IMG/VR virus record: IMGVR_UViG_3300025889_017816
Span: 1-64,000 of that record
Strand: one strand, 5' to 3'
DNA from: a virus
Length of the DNA: 64,000 nucleotides
A program made the position numbers and the translations under genes. Every line of letters starts with the position of its first letter. The first letter of the stretch is position 1. A model generated the notes under the pieces. It was not told the origin of the DNA. It saw only the letters and a program-made list of their open reading frames with translations, and ran no database searches. Of this stretch, positions 9,397 through 18,120 are shown in pieces.

Positions 9397-11109
9397 TTAT
9401 GCGATTACGGAAAAGTTTTGCTTCTTCACAAATTTAACTACATGATGGAACTTGTCAAATAGTTGATCTCCTTTATGAGAAATCACCCAAATGTTTGTTC
9501 CTTCTCCCAACGTGTTTAATAGTGTTAACACATATTCTGTTGCTGCATTATCTAAACTGCTATCAAAAACCTCATCCAAAATTAATAGGTTAGTGCTTGC
9601 ACTATTCTTTAGCTTTGCTATTGTTCTCCATGTAAACAACAAAGCTAAATCTATTCTTTGTTTTTCACCTTCACTAAAACTATCATAACTGAATTCATCC
9701 CTGTGCCGAGATTTAATTACTTCCTTGAAATTTTCATCTAGATTAAACTGAACAAAGAAGTCCATTGACGTTAAATATTTATTTACTAATTTATTAATGA
9801 TTGGCAAATATTTTTTTATAATCTTTGTTTTGATACCTGTGTCCTTCAATAGGACAGAAGCAATTTCATAGTAGTCCGAAGTTTCATTTAACTCTACTTT
9901 CTTGCCTATAATTTGCATTGTATCTTTTGCTAAAGATACTAATTTGCTTTTTTCTGTATCAATATTACCAACCTTCTTTTGAATATCATCCTTCTCTAAC
10001 TCCAACCTTTGAAGATATCTTTCATTGGTAATAATATCATTTTTATTTTCATTTATTTTTTCATTTAAAGAATCAACTTCTTTAAGTGTTTTGTTTATAG
10101 CTGATATTCTTTGTTCAAGAATTTCTTTTTCTTTTTGTATATCTTGTATATTAGATTTTATTTTTTCAAGATCGGTTTGTTGTTCTTTAATAATATCAAC
10201 TTTGAATTCGTGTTCTATTCCTTGTTTACATTTAGGACAAGTATCATTATCATGATAAAAAGAAATGTCCTTTTCTATCTTAGAATAATTCCTTTCAAAA
10301 TCTTTAATGTCATTCATCACCACATTAATACTGTTTATTATATCATTTTGATCTTTGATAGAATCTAAAGCAGTAAACTTTTGGTCATTCAACTGAGCCA
10401 AAGAAGATTTCATAACCTGAACATCATTTAGTATGGAAACTATCTTTTCTTCTATATCTTTTATTTTAGCTTCCCTGTCATCTTCTAAAGTTTTGATATA
10501 CTCTTCTTGTAACTTAGCTTTATTTTTTGCCAATGAAATGTCGTTCTCAATAACCTGTAGATTATTTTTTAATTCATTTATTTTTTCTTTTAATACAAGA
10601 TTCATTGATGAAAAAATTCTAATATCTAAAATGTCCTCAATAATATCTCGACGAGCGCCTGTAGGTAATTGCATGAAAGGTGTGAACGAAGCAGAACCTA
10701 GAATTACAATCTGCGTAAAAGATTTATAATTTAATTTTAAAATTCCTTCTTCTAGATATTTTTGATAATCTCTAGTAGCAGAATTTTGATCTATCATAGT
10801 ATTGTTAATCCAAATTTCAAATTTATTTGGTTTAATACCACGAACAATTTTATAGTGTCTGCCTCCTATACTAAATTCAATTTCTACCAAACAACCTTTA
10901 CCATTAATAGAATTAACTAATTGAGGTTTATTGATATTACGATATGGTTTACCAAACAATGCAAAACAAATTGCATCCAATAAGGTACTTTTGCCGCTAC
11001 CATTCTCCCCAACTATTAATGTAGTGGGTCGTTTATCTAATTTTATCTCCGTGAAATTATTTCCTGTTGAAAGGAAATTTTTCCATCTTACAGTTTTAAA
11101 ATGAATCAT
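9397..11109 (-). CDS. 46: Recombination nuclease subunit gp46 (Rad50/SbcC-like)
   Basis: The 570-residue SMC-like ATPase has Walker A GENGSGKST at 34-42, two coiled-coil arms on either side of a CPKC zinc hook near 287, the ABC signature FSEGEKQRIDLALL near 477, and a Walker B segment NLLILDEVFD. T4 gp46 has 560 residues. With gp47 it resects DNA ends for recombination-dependent replication and helps degrade host DNA. Its ATG overlaps the gene 47 stop by 4 bp, so the two subunits are translationally coupled. Confidence 0.96.
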   Translation of the reverse strand: MIHFKTVRWKNFLSTGNNFTEIKLDKRPTTLIVGENGSGKSTLLDAICFALFGKPYRNINKPQLVNSINGKGCLVEIEFSIGGRHYKIVRGIKPNKFEIWINNTMIDQNSATRDYQKYLEEGILKLNYKSFTQIVILGSASFTPFMQLPTGARRDIIEDILDIRIFSSMNLVLKEKINELKNNLQVIENDISLAKNKAKLQEEYIKTLEDDREAKIKDIEEKIVSILNDVQVMKSSLAQLNDQKFTALDSIKDQNDIINSINVVMNDIKDFERNYSKIEKDISFYHDNDTCPKCKQGIEHEFKVDIIKEQQTDLEKIKSNIQDIQKEKEILEQRISAINKTLKEVDSLNEKINENKNDIITNERYLQRLELEKDDIQKKVGNIDTEKSKLVSLAKDTMQIIGKKVELNETSDYYEIASVLLKDTGIKTKIIKKYLPIINKLVNKYLTSMDFFVQFNLDENFKEVIKSRHRDEFSYDSFSEGEKQRIDLALLFTWRTIAKLKNSASTNLLILDEVFDSSLDNAATEYVLTLLNTLGEGTNIWVISHKGDQLFDKFHHVVKFVKKQNFSVIA

Positions 11110-12146
11110 ATCTCTAAATTCTGCGCTTCCACATAAAGAGTTTTCAATAAGGTTTTAATCTTTTCTTTATCTAATGTTGATTCTGTGCTATCAACATAAT
11201 CAGATAATAAAGTAACCGTGTCCTCTACATTAATATTATCATCAAGTGCGTCTGATTCAAATTCAGAAAAATCTTCATGAATTGTCAACTCTAAAACATC
11301 ATTAGCATATAATCCATCAATGAATTTATCAAATTTATGATAATCAGTTTTATGAACAACAGTTACCTTAACACAACATTCACTAAAATCTGAAGGTTTA
11401 GGTAAAGGCTTCCTGTCATCATAATGTATCTTTTTGAAAATAATATTTGGATTTTGAATAAAAGAAATTTCAGAAGTTTGTAAATCTAAAACATGAAATC
11501 CTCTTGGATCATCAAAATCATTCCATGTGAACCCATAAGGACTCCCCAAATAATAAATGTTGTCGTCTGTATTTCTATGATGGAAATGTCCTGTCAATAC
11601 CATTTCATAATCTTTTAATAGATTGCGATTTAATCCATGGTCGTTCTTAACACCACGAAACATATAAAATCCTTCTATTTCAAAATGCCCAAAGCAATAT
11701 CTTGTTGATTGTTTCAAAACTTCCATACACTCATCATAATTGTCTGAGCATATCCATGGGACAAAAGAACAAGATTGATTGTCTATTTCTTGGATGATGG
11801 GTTTTTCTAATATTTCTATGTTAGGATATTGGCGTAATAAAAGATCCAATGAATTAACTTCATTCGTGTTCTTATAATAAGTATCATGATTACCAATAAT
11901 AATTTTCATGTCAATCTCTAATTCCTGCAAAGGCTCAAAGAAATATTTCTTTGCTGACTTTAGAGTATTGAAATTAATATATTTTCTTCTGTCGAACACA
12001 TCACCTAGATGTATTAAAGTTTTAATTTTATTTTCTTCCATAAAGGGAAAGAATGTATTCTCATAAAACTTTTTAAAGAAACTATCAAAATTTTGTGAAT
12101 CGTTTCTAGCACCAAAATGTGTGTCTGCTAATATTGCAACACGCAT
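11106..12146 (-). CDS. 47: Recombination nuclease subunit gp47 (Mre11/SbcD-like)
   Basis: The 346-residue metallophosphoesterase shows the full metal-site set: LADTHFG at 7-13, HLGDVFDRR, IIGNHDTYY and LTGHFHHRN. This is the nuclease partner of gp46 in the T4 end-processing complex (T4 gp47, 339 residues). It begins 2 bp after the queD stop, so the 7-deazaguanine island and the 47-46 pair probably share a transcript. Confidence 0.96.
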   Translation of the reverse strand: MRVAILADTHFGARNDSQNFDSFFKKFYENTFFPFMEENKIKTLIHLGDVFDRRKYINFNTLKSAKKYFFEPLQELEIDMKIIIGNHDTYYKNTNEVNSLDLLLRQYPNIEILEKPIIQEIDNQSCSFVPWICSDNYDECMEVLKQSTRYCFGHFEIEGFYMFRGVKNDHGLNRNLLKDYEMVLTGHFHHRNTDDNIYYLGSPYGFTWNDFDDPRGFHVLDLQTSEISFIQNPNIIFKKIHYDDRKPLPKPSDFSECCVKVTVVHKTDYHKFDKFIDGLYANDVLELTIHEDFSEFESDALDDNINVEDTVTLLSDYVDSTESTLDKEKIKTLLKTLYVEAQNLEI

Positions 12147-12148
12147 TT

Positions 12149-12610
12149 TTAAATCCTATAGATTGCTGAGTTTGCGCCATGTTCTTTTACTTCACAAGAA
12201 ACACAAAAAACCCGTCCGTTAGTTAAATTCTGTACTAGATGATTTGCAGTATGAAAGGCGTGTTCAGCAAACTTTTCACAACCAACTCCATCCATGATTA
12301 TAACTTTAGCTAGCCCATCCTCTTCAAGTTTCATTAGTCTACTTAAACTAGGATCTTCACGATCTAATATTAGAGTATGATCAAAATTCTGTTCAAGCCA
12401 AGATTTTAATTGTTTAAGACCGCCAAAATCCATAACCCAATTTTTATTATCTAAGATGTGACACCCAAAAACAAATGAAAAACTTAGTGCATAACCATGA
12501 AGTAAAGAACAATGGCTATGATTTGCGTTCGGTTGACGGAAAACACACGACAATCCTTGTTCATGTCCATATGTTTTTGTAGAAAAATATTTAAAAGATT
12601 GCATATTCAT
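12149..12610 (-). CDS. queD: QueD-like 6-carboxytetrahydropterin synthase
   Basis: This 153-residue T-fold enzyme should convert 7,8-dihydroneopterin triphosphate, the FolE product, to 6-carboxytetrahydropterin. Seen: the catalytic cysteine block HCSLLHGY (Cys34, His38), the VMDFGGLKQLK strand, and a late EVKEHGANSAIY segment that aligns with the pterin-binding glutamate region. The usual C-x3-HGH zinc motif reads HGY here, so one zinc ligand is replaced or supplied by His31 or His33 just upstream. GAGGT precedes the ATG at good distance. The ATG overlaps the glycosyltransferase stop in ATGA. It works with folE and queE upstream. Confidence 0.85.
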   Translation of the reverse strand: MNMQSFKYFSTKTYGHEQGLSCVFRQPNANHSHCSLLHGYALSFSFVFGCHILDNKNWVMDFGGLKQLKSWLEQNFDHTLILDREDPSLSRLMKLEEDGLAKVIIMDGVGCEKFAEHAFHTANHLVQNLTNGRVFCVSCEVKEHGANSAIYRI

Positions 12611-13704
12611 TTCAGTACCTCACAAAGTTTATCGCAAGAAAAATAATTTTCCCTTAAGAAATCTCTATTCTTTTCAATCTTATCGCCATACTTATCAAAA
12701 TTATTCATCATATGTTTAATTTTTTCAACTAAGTTAACCTTACTTTTTTGAAATTTTGAAAAAGAAGAAGTCCAATCATACGGGTACATAAAAGAGTCAT
12801 CATACATTTCTGTATATGACAAACGATTTGGAACCAAAGGAATACCCCCTGCTTCTAAAATTTCATAACAACTAATACCTAAAGTCTCTTGTAAGTTTGC
12901 TGAGAATACCATCTTTGCTCTACCCAAAAGATCATAGTATTCCTCCTTTTTTAAATTATTTTCCTGTGCAAACACAAAAGTATATTCTGGCATTTCCTTT
13001 TTTAGTTCACGAAATATTTCTGGTTGTTTTTCAGGAGCTATTCTGTGTGGGAATACAATAATATCTTCTTTTTCTTTTTTTGATAATAACATAGAATATT
13101 GTGTATATTCCATAGGCCAACCAGTTCTTACTATTTTATTGCCTGGCTTATAACGAATTTTTCCTGTTCGTATATCTGTGTCAAGAAGATTATTTAAAAA
13201 TAATTCAATATGAAAATCCGAAGCAAAATAATTATGATTTATTGCTTCAAACAACCCCTTTTCAATATGTCGTAACCAAGGTACATATTTTTTTGCTTTT
13301 GTTTGGTCGATTGTTCTACCAAGAAAATCATGTGGATCATAACTGCCTGCATGCCAAAGAGCATGAATTTTTATATTCGCCTTTAACAAGTCAGCCATAT
13401 ATTTTAAATTTATAATACCTGGATGCCATGCGTCTGCAAAAACAAAATGGTCACCATCTTTAACATCACCCGAATGAAACAATCTTGCTAATGTATCTAC
13501 TTGTGCTGCTTTGTATATGTTCGTAGCAGCAAAATTCAAGAAAGCACCTTTAGTTGTTTCTCCACCACCCAAAGTATTTAAATCAGGGCCATCAATAACT
13601 TTTACTTCATGATTAGTTTTTTCTTTAAGAATCTTAGGGAAATGAGTTTTCCATTCTTTTGTATATCTAGATTCAACAGATTCTAAATCAATTAAGTATA
13701 TCAT
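12607..13704 (-). CDS. GT-B glycosyltransferase in the 7-deazaguanine island
   Basis: The C-terminal half matches GT4-type glycosyltransferases: VFPHRIAPEKQPEIF near residue 216, then MVFSANLQETLGISCYE and ILEAGGIPLVPN, where the E-x7-E type arrangement holds the nucleotide sugar. The N-terminal half has a Rossmann-like pattern. I chose the ATG at 13704, which overlaps the upstream stop in ATGA, giving 365 residues. A GTG lies three codons earlier. Its acceptor is unknown. Sitting between a T-fold gene and queD, it may glycosylate the modified DNA base, as T4 glucosyltransferases do for hydroxymethylcytosine. A role on virion proteins is the alternative. Confidence 0.8.
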   Translation of the reverse strand: MIYLIDLESVESRYTKEWKTHFPKILKEKTNHEVKVIDGPDLNTLGGGETTKGAFLNFAATNIYKAAQVDTLARLFHSGDVKDGDHFVFADAWHPGIINLKYMADLLKANIKIHALWHAGSYDPHDFLGRTIDQTKAKKYVPWLRHIEKGLFEAINHNYFASDFHIELFLNNLLDTDIRTGKIRYKPGNKIVRTGWPMEYTQYSMLLSKKEKEDIIVFPHRIAPEKQPEIFRELKKEMPEYTFVFAQENNLKKEEYYDLLGRAKMVFSANLQETLGISCYEILEAGGIPLVPNRLSYTEMYDDSFMYPYDWTSSFSKFQKSKVNLVEKIKHMMNNFDKYGDKIEKNRDFLRENYFSCDKLCEVLK

Positions 13705-14066
13705 GCGAACCACAGGTTTCTTAAAACAGCACCATTTTCACCATCTTCACTAACACTGACTTCCACATAACGATTAGGATAGGCACCTTCGATATAAAGC
13801 ATTAACTCTTCAGCTAACATTTCACAAGATTTGAAATCAACTTCAAATACCCCTTTGTATAGACTTTCCAATTCTCTCTTGAAAAGAATGAATTCAATAT
13901 CTCTATCATTATGATTCACTGATACACGAACTCTGAAATGAAACATATGTCTGTGTGGGTGACCCAAAAAAGAAACTTCTTCTAATTTAGGATCTTCCAA
14001 TGCTGCTGGATAACGATGTATACCTTCTTTTTGAAAGGTAACCTCAATAAATCTTTTAACGCCCAT
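13701..14066 (-). CDS. Divergent T-fold (QueD-related) protein
   Basis: This 121-residue protein has a T-fold-like order of elements: PHRHMFHFRVRVSV (His-rich strand like the QueD HGH strand), DIEFILFKRELESLY (like the xMDFxxLK strand-helix), SCEMLAEELMLYI, and a late VEVSVSEDGENGAV strand. It lacks the catalytic C-x3-HGH block, so it is unlikely to be a normal QueD. The same arrangement recurs in uncharacterised phage proteins. Position between dpdA and the glycosyltransferase suggests a role in the base-modification pathway. The DpdA-like gene ends 9 bp before its start. Confidence 0.7.
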   Translation of the reverse strand: MGVKRFIEVTFQKEGIHRYPAALEDPKLEEVSFLGHPHRHMFHFRVRVSVNHNDRDIEFILFKRELESLYKGVFEVDFKSCEMLAEELMLYIEGAYPNRYVEVSVSEDGENGAVLRNLWFA

Positions 14067-14075
14067 AATAAACTC

Positions 14076-15344
14076 CTATAGTAAATCCAAAGTTGCTGGA
14101 AGACCATCATTGAGAGATTGTGAAGGGACCGAAGATCTTCCTATCCCATTTTCCCAATAAACATAATCCTCACGATTTTTTATTTTACTAAAACTATCCA
14201 TCGCCTTATACATTTTATCGCCTATAATTTTCTCTGCTAATATAAAATCATTTGCTACAGTATTCAAGTGATTAATAAAGTTAATGGTTGAACCCATGAA
14301 ATAGGCATTAAAAGAAAGAATAGGTGGATTAGGGTCTCCTGTTTTCTTTTGAAATCTTCTAACACTTTCATTCATTGTGTAATGAAACAATTCATCTTCC
14401 ATATCCCATTCAGGATAATGTCTCTTGACATCTTCATTAATGACAGAATACATTGGTCCGTCGTTTGTTGTGAATTCCTTCCCAGGAGTAATCCATGTAA
14501 AGTCAGGACCGTAATATCTTCCCATCTGCACACCTGATGTATGTGTGGTACTATCATAGCTAACAAGAATGTCCTTATATAACCCTGCTCTTATCATAGC
14601 AAGAGTAGGAATCATTCTTGAAACTGAACCAACACCTAGAAGATGAACATGATTAACCTTTTCGAACAAAGGGAGCTGTGTGAAAAAGAAAGCTCTTCTA
14701 CAATCTTCTAAAGCGCCTGTTCCCATACCAGCAGAACCCATGGCAACACCACCTATATGTCCATGTAATTCTTCAGGAATTTCTTCTAATGCATATTCAG
14801 TCCAACGAATATAGGTATCAAGATCATGGCCTTGAACAATGAAAAAAGGTTTAGCTTCAGAATTTTTATTGATAAAGGTTTGTATTTGATCTCTAACATT
14901 TCTCCCAGATTCTCGTGCACACCATTCAAACTTGCTTCTATCAAAATACTTGTTTGTGATATCACCTCTTGTTGCTCTGTCAGCTAAAAGAGAAACAGGA
15001 ATTTCATCAAAGCTCATTGCATAATCTGAATACTCTGCTTGACTTGCATATACCTGTTGTTTTAATTCTGGAGTAATAGAAAGACCAAGGGTGATCATTT
15101 GTAGACCACCTGAATCTGCATATACTTTATTAATACCTTTGTTTCGATATTTACCGTAAAATACTTCACCAAAATGTTTTTCTACATGAGCATTGTAAAG
15201 AAAAGAAAACTCATGATTATGTTTACCACGAATGGTAGCCCATAAATCATTTAACTTACCCAGAAGTTCTCCTGTGTGTGTATCTTTAAAATTGCATCTT
15301 AGAAAAGACAATCCTGAAGCAACATATTCGAATTGTGCTTTCAT
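14076..15344 (-). CDS. dpdA: DpdA-like DNA guanine transglycosylase
   Basis: The 422-residue protein belongs to the tRNA-guanine transglycosylase superfamily: YADSGGLQM at 75-83 (substrate-binding Asp77), FFIVQGHD at 167-174, GGVAMGS at 198-204, LLGVGS at 235-240, and SYDSTTHTSG at 262-271 with the candidate nucleophile Asp264. The zinc-binding C-terminus of bacterial TGT (C-x-C-x2-C) is missing and the protein is divergent from tRNA enzymes. This matches DpdA, which swaps guanine in DNA for a 7-deazaguanine. It is encoded together with folE, queD and queE, which make the base. It overlaps the exonuclease gene by 4 bp. Confidence 0.82.
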   Translation of the reverse strand: MKAQFEYVASGLSFLRCNFKDTHTGELLGKLNDLWATIRGKHNHEFSFLYNAHVEKHFGEVFYGKYRNKGINKVYADSGGLQMITLGLSITPELKQQVYASQAEYSDYAMSFDEIPVSLLADRATRGDITNKYFDRSKFEWCARESGRNVRDQIQTFINKNSEAKPFFIVQGHDLDTYIRWTEYALEEIPEELHGHIGGVAMGSAGMGTGALEDCRRAFFFTQLPLFEKVNHVHLLGVGSVSRMIPTLAMIRAGLYKDILVSYDSTTHTSGVQMGRYYGPDFTWITPGKEFTTNDGPMYSVINEDVKRHYPEWDMEDELFHYTMNESVRRFQKKTGDPNPPILSFNAYFMGSTINFINHLNTVANDFILAEKIIGDKMYKAMDSFSKIKNREDYVYWENGIGRSSVPSQSLNDGLPATLDLL

Positions 15345-15844
15345 GAATTGAGTATCCTTAATAAGTGTTTAGTTTGATGTAATGCATCTTCAAGAGCATT
15401 ATGATAATTTTGTGTTCTGTCTTCTTCTGGAATTTTGATAAGTTCTTTAATTGTTCGATAACATCTATCATCCCAATATTTCCAAGGTCTAATCATACCT
15501 ACTGCTTTGAAAGCATTATCTAAAATTACATTATCAAATCCTGCCCCACAACCCCAAGTAGGTAGAGAAATATTTCCATACCATTCACTGAAGTTATTAA
15601 GTGCATCTTTCAATGAGACATTGTTTTTTCTTAATTCTTCAAAAACGTGTTTAGGTTGTTGGCTCCACCAATAAACCGTATCTTTGGAAACATGAAGACC
15701 ATATTTCTTACAATCTAATACATCGACTGTGCAGTAAAATTGATCAAGAATTCCACCATCAAAAGAAAATTTTACTGCTCCTATAGAACATATAGCTGCA
15801 TTAGATTCCGTACTCATGGTCTCTAAGTCAATCATTACGTCCAT
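15341..15844 (-). CDS. DEDDh 3'-5' exonuclease
   Basis: A 167-residue DnaQ-superfamily exonuclease. It shows MIDLETMSTESNA (Asp and Glu of motif I at 6 and 8), GAGFDNVILDNAF for motif II, and YHNALEDALHQ for motif III, giving the DEDDh set. The layout resembles the Rv2179c/RNase AS or DexA group of single-domain phage exonucleases. The substrate, DNA or RNA, cannot be read. It sits between folE and dpdA with only 2-4 bp at the joins, so it belongs to the 7-deazaguanine operon, although a direct link to modification is unproven. Confidence 0.85.
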   Translation of the reverse strand: MDVMIDLETMSTESNAAICSIGAVKFSFDGGILDQFYCTVDVLDCKKYGLHVSKDTVYWWSQQPKHVFEELRKNNVSLKDALNNFSEWYGNISLPTWGCGAGFDNVILDNAFKAVGMIRPWKYWDDRCYRTIKELIKIPEEDRTQNYHNALEDALHQTKHLLRILNS

Positions 15845-15846
15845 AA

Positions 15847-16548
15847 TTATTCCTTGATTAGTGTCATGAACTCCTGACGAAGTGCTTGATCACGGAAACC
15901 ACCACCCAACTTGGAGGTGATAGTTCTAGAATGAGGATCTTGAATTCCTCTTGCCTTTACACAGAAATGATCGGCATCAATAACAACTGCAACATCAATG
16001 GTCCCAAGAATATAACTCAAAGCATGATAAACCTGTTCGGTTAATCTTTCTTGAATTTGAGGACGCCTTGAAAAATATTCCACAATTCTATTTAACTTAG
16101 AAAGTCCAATTACTTTCTCAGATGGAATATATGCAACATGAGCAACACCATTAATAGTTACGAAATGATGTTCACAAACAGAAGTAACATTGATGTTTTT
16201 TGATAATACCATTTCATCATACATCATTTTATTATCTACTGTAGTGCATTTAGGAAATGCAGATATATTCAATCCTGAAAATAATTCGTTCACGAACATC
16301 TTTGCAACTCGTTTCGGAGAGTCTTGCAAAGAGTCATCAGTAAGATCTAAGCCTAAAGTTTTCATAATATCAGAAAAACTTTTCTCTATCTTCTTAACCT
16401 TTTTGTCAGAAAAATCATCAGTTTCAAAAAAAGGAGTTTCAACACCTAAAGAAGCAAGATGCTTATGTACACGTTGACCTAAATCAGGATCACACTTCTC
16501 TAGTGCATTACGAAGAGCTACGGCATTATATTTGTGTTGCGATTTCAT
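15847..16548 (-). CDS. folE: GTP cyclohydrolase I
   Basis: FolE opens the 7-deazaguanine pathway by turning GTP into 7,8-dihydroneopterin triphosphate. The zinc motif CEHHF lies near residue 124, followed by GLSKLNRIVEYFSRRPQIQERL and a C-terminal DHFCVKARGI with the second zinc cysteine. The ATG at 16548 has a strong GGGAGGT just upstream, whereas the longer frame to 16572 runs into queE and has none. The protein is then 233 residues, close to bacterial FolE. It starts 1 bp after the queE stop. Confidence 0.95.
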   Translation of the reverse strand: MKSQHKYNAVALRNALEKCDPDLGQRVHKHLASLGVETPFFETDDFSDKKVKKIEKSFSDIMKTLGLDLTDDSLQDSPKRVAKMFVNELFSGLNISAFPKCTTVDNKMMYDEMVLSKNINVTSVCEHHFVTINGVAHVAYIPSEKVIGLSKLNRIVEYFSRRPQIQERLTEQVYHALSYILGTIDVAVVIDADHFCVKARGIQDPHSRTITSKLGGGFRDQALRQEFMTLIKE

Positions 16549-16549
16549 T

Positions 16550-17464
16550 TTACCTCCCAATAACGTTGCCAAAAACGTAGCAGTGATTTCTTGTAGCTAC
16601 ATTGTACCCTCTATTCATTGCTTCAATAGCAATGTTTCCTATATCCTCTCTTTCCTGTGAATCTTTTGTAGCTCCAACAGGCATGACCCATACATTAGGC
16701 ATAGGGAAAGGATCAAACTTTAATCTAATATTATTTAGGTGTTTGTCAAGTTCTAACCAGTTGTTTATTGTTCCATTACATACAAATTTAAGTATACTTG
16801 TTACACCATAACTCAAAGTAGAATATGAATGAATTATTTCGGGGTCTACTACATTTTGCTCACCCGATACTGTGAATAATTTAGGACTCATTGCAAAATG
16901 CCAACGCCTACCTCCTAAATCACGAAAGCCACCTGGTCTAGTTAAGAATTCTTTTAATTCATCTGTTATGGTTTTTGTAGCATTAGTTTCAACCGTAACA
17001 ATTTCAGGCATATTATTTCTTGCTTTCAATTCTTTAATAATTTCTATCATTGCCTTTTGTTGCATCATAGGTTCACCACCTGTAAAGCAAAGCATGATAG
17101 GTTGATGGGTTAAAGGATGAACAAACAAACCCTCAGGATTATGTTCACTTTTATTTGTTTCTACTAAACGGTCGCAGATAGATTCGACTGTACCATCATT
17201 TGCAAGATGCTTATATTTTACTGACCATGAATAAGAACTATCACAACCAGTTGTCCACACAGGTAATTGTTTCACATCATTAATTCCAGATCCATCAAAA
17301 TCCATATAAGGTAAAACATAACTGGATGGATCAGTTGGGTCTTGTTGACCAAAACCATTACAATTTAAATTACAACCAAAAAAACGAAGCCAAACTGCTG
17401 GGTAACCAGACAGCTCCGCTTCGCCTTGGAAAGAATAAAATATTTCTGAATAACGAATTCTCAT
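16550..17464 (-). CDS. queE: QueE-like 7-carboxy-7-deazaguanine synthase with split cysteine motif
   Basis: This 304-residue radical-SAM enzyme should rearrange 6-carboxytetrahydropterin to 7-carboxy-7-deazaguanine. It opens like QueE (YSEIFYSFQGEAELSGYPAVW, then LRFFGCNLNC) and has TGGEP at 128-132. The cluster motif is unusual. Cys31 and Cys35 are in place, but the third cysteine (in GCDSSYSW, Cys74) comes after an insert of roughly 36 residues, giving C-x3-C-x38-C. The C-D-S-x-Y after Cys74 aligns with the C-D-T of normal enzymes. A sigma70-like promoter lies upstream, and folE follows at once. Confidence 0.88.
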   Translation of the reverse strand: MRIRYSEIFYSFQGEAELSGYPAVWLRFFGCNLNCNGFGQQDPTDPSSYVLPYMDFDGSGINDVKQLPVWTTGCDSSYSWSVKYKHLANDGTVESICDRLVETNKSEHNPEGLFVHPLTHQPIMLCFTGGEPMMQQKAMIEIIKELKARNNMPEIVTVETNATKTITDELKEFLTRPGGFRDLGGRRWHFAMSPKLFTVSGEQNVVDPEIIHSYSTLSYGVTSILKFVCNGTINNWLELDKHLNNIRLKFDPFPMPNVWVMPVGATKDSQEREDIGNIAIEAMNRGYNVATRNHCYVFGNVIGR

Positions 17465-17523: not shown

Positions 17524-18120
17524 TTAATAATCCAATTCTAAAATATTTTCTTGTTCCTCTTCTTCTATAGAAATTGGAACATAATCATCTTCTAACTTCT
17601 GTAAGTATTTAGGTTTCCTCTTTATGCTACTTTCCTTTGTGTCAGAAGTTTCTTCTTTGGCAAGAGTTGCTTGTTGCTTTAGATACTTCAGAAAGTTAAC
17701 ATCATAAGTACCTTCATCATGGATTTGTCTTATAAGGTTATCCATATCCATGGATTCAATATACTTGTATTTGGTTTGAAGTTGTCTTTTTTCTTTTTGA
17801 ATTCTACGAACAAACGCATAATAGGAAATCTGCGTGAAATATGCAAAGGGATTGCTTGATTTGTTCGGATCAAAATTATGCATATAAGTTAAGCAATTTT
17901 CTATTGCATCAAGTACCATTTCGTCACGAAAGGTATAATTAATAAAATTGCTTTTATATGCTAGATGATTTGCAATCTTGATAAAACAATCACCTATATA
18001 ATCTGGAACAATTGGTCTTTCTTCTCCCGCTGCTTCTGCAATTGAAACTTCTTCTTTGTATGCTACCATAGCAGAAAGAAATTCCTTGTTGTTCACATAA
18101 TGTTTACTCTCATCTTTCAT
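17524..18120 (-). CDS. 55: Late sigma factor gp55
   Basis: The 198-residue product matches T4 gp55 (185 residues), the small sigma factor that directs host RNA polymerase to late promoters. The conserved central part reads DEMVLDAIENCLTYMHNFDP, then SSNPFAYFTQISYYAFVRRI, which is the sigma region 2-like helix pair that reads the TATAAATA element. Eight perfect TATAAATA sites occur in the structural part of this window. The gene overlaps the LSm-like gene upstream by 11 bp. Confidence 0.93.
   Translation of the reverse strand: MKDESKHYVNNKEFLSAMVAYKEEVSIAEAAGEERPIVPDYIGDCFIKIANHLAYKSNFINYTFRDEMVLDAIENCLTYMHNFDPNKSSNPFAYFTQISYYAFVRRIQKEKRQLQTKYKYIESMDMDNLIRQIHDEGTYDVNFLKYLKQQATLAKEETSDTKESSIKRKPKYLQKLEDDYVPISIEEEEQENILELDY

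Follow-up and report, generated by a model that had tools for sequence, protein, structure and literature searches.

A candidate phage operon for the insertion and glycosylation of a 7-deazaguanine base in DNA

Introduction

The 7-deazaguanine bases known from DNA carry small groups at C7, and enzymes of the FolE, QueD and QueE families together produce 7-carboxy-7-deazaguanine (CDG). Here, we analyse a seven-gene 7-deazaguanine island on the minus strand at positions 12149-17464 of a 119,474-bp record of a T4-like marine phage (IMG/VR record IMGVR_UViG_3300025889_017816); the window, that is, the whole stretch of DNA analysed, comprises the first 64,000 nucleotides of this record. The island shares FolE, QueD, QueE and a putative DNA guanine transglycosylase with the phage systems of 9g, CAjan, nt-1 and Rosebush (Hutinet et al. 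2019, PMC6884629), but differs from them in having neither QueC nor an amidotransferase, and in the fixed presence of a QueD-fold paralogue (the T-fold protein), a GT4-type glycosyltransferase (GT) and an exonuclease. Cellulophaga phage phiST likewise lacks QueC and has a T-fold homologue, with 39% identity, in its FolE-QueD-QueE operon; unlike the island, however, it has a small protein resembling tRNA-guanine transglycosylase (TGT), here called DpdA3-type, and no homologue of the GT could be detected in it.

With the glucosyltransferases alpha-GT and beta-GT of phage T4, which act on 5-hydroxymethylcytosine, the island presumably has in common the principle of a sugar on a modified base as a shield, although its GT belongs to another family, would act on another base and has no hydroxymethyl handle available. 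With BshA and MshA the GT shares both fold and EX7E motif, yet identity is only about 12%, the context is one of DNA modification, and another acceptor is expected. The parts come from known families, and the combination with a GT is the new point. Neither glycosylated 7-deazaguanine DNA nor this combination was found in the searchable literature, outside which lie most subscription journals and a key 2023 article.

We consider the island to be a self-contained DNA-hypermodification operon that inserts and glycosylates a CDG-derived base, with a probability of roughly 60%. In the proposed pathway, FolE, QueD and QueE would convert GTP to CDG, and the T-fold protein would tailor the free base in QueC's stead, the likeliest reaction being decarboxylation to 7-deazaguanine. 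The transglycosylase, by virtue of its family (DpdA2), would exchange guanine in phage DNA for the CDG-derived base after replication, and the GT, as its gene linkage suggests, would then place a sugar on the inserted base, presumably in that order and with a host UDP-sugar, for example UDP-N-acetylglucosamine (UDP-GlcNAc) or UDP-glucose, as the probable donor. The outcome would be 7-deazaguanine made bulky by its sugar, which may block host nucleases.

The glycosyltransferase and its linkage in phages

Protein families were assigned by scans of Pfam, PHROG and NCBIfam, and AlphaFold2 structures, modelled with IMG/VR relatives in the alignment, were compared by Foldseek. The GT matches Pfam Glycos_transf_1 weakly (2.3e-4) and gives a further weak match in a sequence-profile search of the PDB. 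The top Foldseek matches of its model are BshA (E 1.2e-9) and MshA, and both glutamates of its EX7E motif, E275 and E283, are invariant. By sequence and predicted structure it is a GT4 enzyme of the retaining type; T4 alpha-GT and beta-GT are not among the top 50 PDB fold matches of the GT, which also has no Pfam match to them.

Relatives of the GT were found in 19 of 50,697 phage records, drawn from a handful of phage groups. The isolate gene sets read were those of PA5oct, Phosso, ACP17, X1 and PhiXhv-12, leaving out the other PhiXhv records and Ep032. In the first four (PA5oct being one of 11 similar Pseudomonas jumbo records), the GT lies inside a deazaguanine gene set with the T-fold gene and QueE; FolE is part of the set in Phosso, ACP17 and X1, and was not in the stretch read for PA5oct. 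For IMG/VR, we examined the best 80 of at least ~590 GT relatives and counted linkage where at least 4 kb of upstream DNA was available. A T-fold gene and a transglycosylase were present in all 56 such loci, and in three loci that seemed to hold the GT alone the sequence begins at the GT. Conversely, T-fold loci with flanks had a transglycosylase in 53 of 53 cases and the GT in 47 of 53, with a DpdA3-type protein in five of the remaining six. This association spans several phage groups and both DpdA2 and the 540-residue transglycosylases of the type found in PA5oct. The seven-gene order of the window recurs in at least six other contigs (L045, L058, L061, L102, L103 and L104), and the exonuclease directly precedes DpdA2 in most IMG/VR islands of this layout.

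The idea of the GT as a random passenger was rejected given its linkage in all 56 loci, and that the GT belongs to the pathway is, in our judgement, highly probable. An earlier note, made from the sequence of the window alone, had called it notable to find the set, with an embedded glycosyltransferase, in a T4-like marine phage. The GT is indeed present. The set is not limited to one such phage but widespread in IMG/VR, and neither the GT nor the T-fold protein is a mere extra: in phages that differ widely, and in some bacteria, both accompany the transglycosylase as conserved partners.

In Xanthomonas phage PhiXhv-12 (L018, 5618-8852), three genes in a row encode Gat-QueC, an N-deacetylase resembling BshB and a protein distantly related to the GT, an arrangement suggestive of a decoration in which GlcNAc is added to a dG+-type base and then deacetylated.

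Bacterial loci

A scan of 84,980 bacterial species genomes yielded 21 GT loci, of which two are incomplete. The GT adjoins a PA5oct-type transglycosylase in 17 of the 21, several of which contain no further gene of the pathway, while one locus (L204) holds the GT together with T-fold, FolE, QueD and QueE genes. A viral origin is probable for some of the 21 contigs (e.g. L187, L189 and L190). In Devosia, a Rhizobiales isolate and Shimia (L191, L192 and L194), a gene for a membrane protein of the VUT family directly precedes the GT, and a phage-integrase gene is found nearby in two of these three loci. The VUT-family protein YhhQ of E. coli is required for preQ0/preQ1 uptake (PMC5372724). It is possible that the module of transporter, GT and transglycosylase is a mobile bacterial DNA-modification element. 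Since several bacterial loci hold no pathway gene beyond the GT and transglycosylase, these two genes form the smallest conserved core, for which the precursor would be phage-made or perhaps salvaged.

These same loci bear on a different reading: the CDG-type base in the DNA (dCDG or plain 7-deazaguanine) stays bare, and the GT, which would do no more than share the operon, modifies some other target, be it a different DNA base, a protein or the host surface. Gene sets with T-fold and DpdA3-type proteins but no GT do exist, in five or six IMG/VR loci and in phiST; surface-acting glycosyltransferases are common in pelagimyophages (PMC7029224); and a bare C7 is no ordinary sugar acceptor. Set against a GT that is tied to the transglycosylase in every one of the 56 IMG/VR loci and in 17 of the 21 bacterial ones, we nevertheless regard this reading as unlikely, and somewhat favour a sugar on the 7-deazaguanine base in DNA.

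Precursor genes and the T-fold protein

All three precursor genes match their families, which supports the proposal of the earlier note that FolE, QueD and QueE lead to CDG. In QueE, the third cluster cysteine is displaced (C31-x3-C35-x38-C74, with 38 residues rather than 2 between the second and third Cys). QueE of Vibrio phage nt-1 has the same displacement, and a similar insertion occurs in PA5oct and others; we therefore rejected the displaced Cys as the mark of a dead gene and take the protein, judging by these alignments, to be a phage-specific form of QueE. QueD has the CxxxHGY motif that other phage QueD proteins share in the alignment.

No QueC was found on the 119,474-bp record. More broadly, 12 of the 13 records with a T-fold gene, ten of these being isolate genomes searched whole, lack QueC or Gat-QueC, which is found in three of three related records that have no T-fold gene; a profile of two phage QueCs had no match in the IMG/VR island loci. 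In the genomes compared, QueC and the T-fold gene thus come close to excluding one another. The set had been described as complete-looking, which holds up to CDG and not beyond it, and we rejected a complete pathway in the usual preQ0 sense owing to the absence of QueC. For the same reason the usual products, dPreQ0 and dADG (both among the nucleosides that the note would search for) and likewise dG+, are not expected; a CDG-derived, probably glycosylated product is predicted instead.

A QueC might lie in an unsequenced part of the phage, with a preQ0-type base being made and the T-fold protein as an accessory. The record is probably a fragment, as it measures 119 kb against 141-147 kb for its nearest isolate relatives, and we noticed no DNA polymerase gene there. 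With QueC lacking in nearly all T-fold records, whole isolate genomes among them, a hidden QueC is nonetheless very improbable.

The T-fold protein has a sequence match to phrog_17812 alone, a family of unknown function, and weak QueD-like matches in the sequence-profile search of the PDB. Its AlphaFold2 model (predicted local distance difference test score, pLDDT, 92.4) has E. coli QueD (4ntk) as its top Foldseek match, with a TM-score of about 0.72. Across the family, three invariant His residues are placed like the metal ligands of QueD and are accompanied by an invariant C-terminal Glu, whereas the catalytic Cys of QueD is lost (none precedes the HxH pair in the alignment, as judged by eye) and the family has an invariant SCE motif of its own. 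Sequence and model thus point to a QueD-fold paralogue, which by its distribution among the records largely replaces QueC. A metal-dependent step on CDG would fit such a protein, decarboxylation being the simplest, and we tentatively propose, at slightly under even odds, that it is a decarboxylase converting CDG to 7-deazaguanine. A 2023 study by Cui and colleagues reportedly detected both dCDG and 7-deazaguanine (dDG) in phage DNA, and assigned CDG decarboxylation, by prediction, to a protein named DpdL; that the T-fold protein is their DpdL is a guess on our part.

Another reading is a pterin pathway: FolE, the T-fold protein and the GT would together yield a pterin cofactor bearing a sugar, as cyanobacterial pterin glucosyltransferases do, and DpdA2 would act separately. 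The T-fold protein does resemble a pterin-binding enzyme, and a tetrahydrobiopterin glucosyltransferase (9v0l) is among the Foldseek matches of the GT, at rank 34. BshA and MshA are the better matches, however, QueE is regularly present, and bacterial GT and transglycosylase modules occur with neither FolE nor a T-fold gene in the locus, which leaves a pterin product very doubtful.

In large-phage islands, a 176-residue family with no Pfam or PHROG match (L132:5576-6106, ~100 related loci) is encoded near the T-fold gene. The islands that hold it rarely show QueD, which the family may replace.

The transglycosylase

The island transglycosylase is 38% identical over 244 residues (5e-45 for the pair) to YP_008125322 of Vibrio phage nt-1, which we confirmed to be the founding DpdA2, and is assigned to the same subfamily. 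DNA of nt-1 has been reported to carry dPreQ0, dADG and dG+ (PMC6884629). A profile of 12 relatives of the island enzyme aligned with E. coli Tgt at a probability of 92.5% (hhalign), and the invariant D76 and D263 (alignment numbering, initial Met omitted) fall on the two catalytic Asp residues of Tgt. The only library match of the protein is to phrog_10773, of unknown function; it does not match the Pfam TGT family (PF01702), and the sequence-profile search of the PDB gave no match for DpdA2. No invariant Cys is present in the alignment of its relatives, and the zinc site of the tRNA TGTs is therefore missing. DpdA of phage 9g did not align with DpdA2, in agreement with Hutinet et al. (PMC6884629). 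We also rejected the PA5oct-type transglycosylase as a 9g-type enzyme, as profile alignment makes it a sister of DpdA2 (98.3% probability).

From these alignments, a role on DNA is a better reading for the island transglycosylase than one on tRNA. The DpdA-like enzyme of the earlier note, said to place a deazaguanine in DNA, thus remains the best interpretation, backed by its DpdA2 membership, and we are confident that phage DNA carries a 7-deazaguanine base. Although FolE, QueD and QueE are common to queuosine synthesis, an island that boosts or alters host tRNA queuosine is barely credible for a record with no QueA, no Pfam TGT, no tRNA genes and no QueF (its single sub-threshold match falls inside FolE), and a transglycosylase that groups with DpdA2 and lacks an invariant Cys for the tRNA-TGT zinc site.

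A phosphoribosyltransferase gene is located at 58-501 of the window. Such a family occurs in 74 IMG/VR island loci and might salvage the guanine released by base exchange.

Strength of the proposed pathway

Several points weigh against a glycosylating operon of the kind proposed. The whole interpretation is built on sequence, predicted structure and gene order, and the metal site of the T-fold protein was assigned from alignment and fold. Most IMG/VR GT and T-fold loci come from one large-phage lineage, such that their counts are not independent. Vibrio phage D479 has a T-fold gene together with a partial QueC match, and the GT homologue of a Paenibacillus genome (L207) has none of this gene context around it, a T-fold homologue being encoded elsewhere in that genome. 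Furthermore, SAR11 cells, the hosts of related phages, are almost without restriction systems (PMC7029224), which makes the benefit of protection less certain. The chemistry poses a further difficulty: position C7 of 7-deazaguanine bears neither a hydroxyl nor an amine nor an acid group, and a C-glycoside would therefore be needed if the T-fold protein decarboxylates CDG. Either the sugar is joined to the nucleophilic C7 by a C-glycosidic bond, or a handle survives in the T-fold product.

More generally, we propose a widespread, previously undescribed glycosylated 7-deazaguanine DNA, made by a QueC-less pathway, possibly as a C7 C-glycoside, around a core of transglycosylase and GT4 enzyme in marine T4-like phages, jumbo phages and mobile elements carried by bacteria, which may salvage the precursor. 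This wider proposal is a speculative one, with the odds leaning a little against it. If true, it would add a new class to the known decorations of phage DNA, comparable to the glucosylated cytosine of T4 but guanine-based and arising through post-replication base exchange, and would give a function to the families phrog_17812 and phrog_10773. One could then predict for which abundant phages, marine and jumbo, the DNA withstands restriction enzymes, Cas nucleases or sequencing preparation, and a mobile bacterial version is indicated as well. As related gene sets are present in the isolates Acidovorax phage ACP17, Sinorhizobium phage Phosso and Pseudomonas phage PA5oct, the question is testable now.

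A text search of the PA5oct, MIJ3 and Callisto papers found no restriction digests of phage DNA. The sequence of PA5oct is 286.8 kb, compared with a size of ~375 kb by pulsed-field electrophoresis (PMC3936114); hypermodified DNA is one possible cause of the difference and terminal redundancy another.

Layout of the island and other genes on the record

Reading of the open reading frames (ORFs) together with the family scans recovered all seven genes that had been named, on the minus strand between gp55 and gp47/46 (Table 1). The tight spacing described earlier is likewise operon-like after correction of two starts, with 2 bp between the end of QueD and the start of gp47. For the GT, the most likely start is the ATG at 13704, whose ATGA overlaps the T-fold stop by 4 bases, in an ORF that begins with GTG at 13713; FolE starts at the ATG at 16548 behind GGGAGG, in a longer ORF that begins with TTG at 16572.

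Table 1. Genes of the 7-deazaguanine island and its two flanks.
Feature	Positions	Strand	Evidence
gp55-like late sigma factor, upstream edge of insertion	17524..18120	-	Synteny with Melnitz and HTVC008M
QueE-like radical SAM CDG synthase, 304 aa	16550..17464	-	phrog_2076, 6e-45
FolE, GTP cyclohydrolase I	15847..16548	-	NCBIfam equivalog, 302.8 bits against a cut-off of 202
DEDDh 3'-5' exonuclease, Rv2179c-like	15341..15844	-	Pfam Rv2179c-like, 1.2e-45
Putative DpdA2-subfamily DNA guanine transglycosylase, 422 aa	14076..15344	-	Similarity to nt-1 DpdA2; phrog_10773, 1.7e-90
T-fold protein, predicted QueD-fold paralogue, 121 aa	13701..14066	-	phrog_17812; AlphaFold2 and Foldseek
Predicted GT4-type retaining glycosyltransferase, EX7E E275/E283	12607..13704	-	Foldseek BshA/MshA; gene linkage
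QueD-like 6-carboxytetrahydropterin synthase, 153 aa	12149..12610	-	Pfam PTPS, 2.6e-13; phrog_2389, 1.4e-40
gp47-like recombination nuclease, downstream edge of insertion	11106..12146	-	Synteny with Melnitz and HTVC008M

In its major capsid protein, the phage shows 68% identity to Methylophilales phage Melnitz and 66% to Pelagibacter phage HTVC008M. Both phages lack the island: gp55 and gp47 overlap in Melnitz and are separated by ~0.1 kb in HTVC008M. As the two genes are adjacent in these relatives, the island is an insertion, made at a single site within the T4-like core.

Elsewhere on the record, a PurA/PurZ-like adenylosuccinate synthetase with a GDTGKGK motif (phrog_1211) is encoded outside the window at 105434-106477 (L009:1434-2477); together with a GMP reductase/IMPDH-like gene (L008:18090-19148), likewise beyond the window, it suggests purine rerouting in the same phage. 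Also outside the window, 78350-102093 is taken up by a series of genes resembling those for carbamoyltransferases, radical SAM enzymes and dehydrogenases. From ~110000 to 119474 the gene texture shifts to few long genes, a Ser-rich 539-residue protein and lipoprotein-like genes, as in a hypervariable region or at an assembly join.

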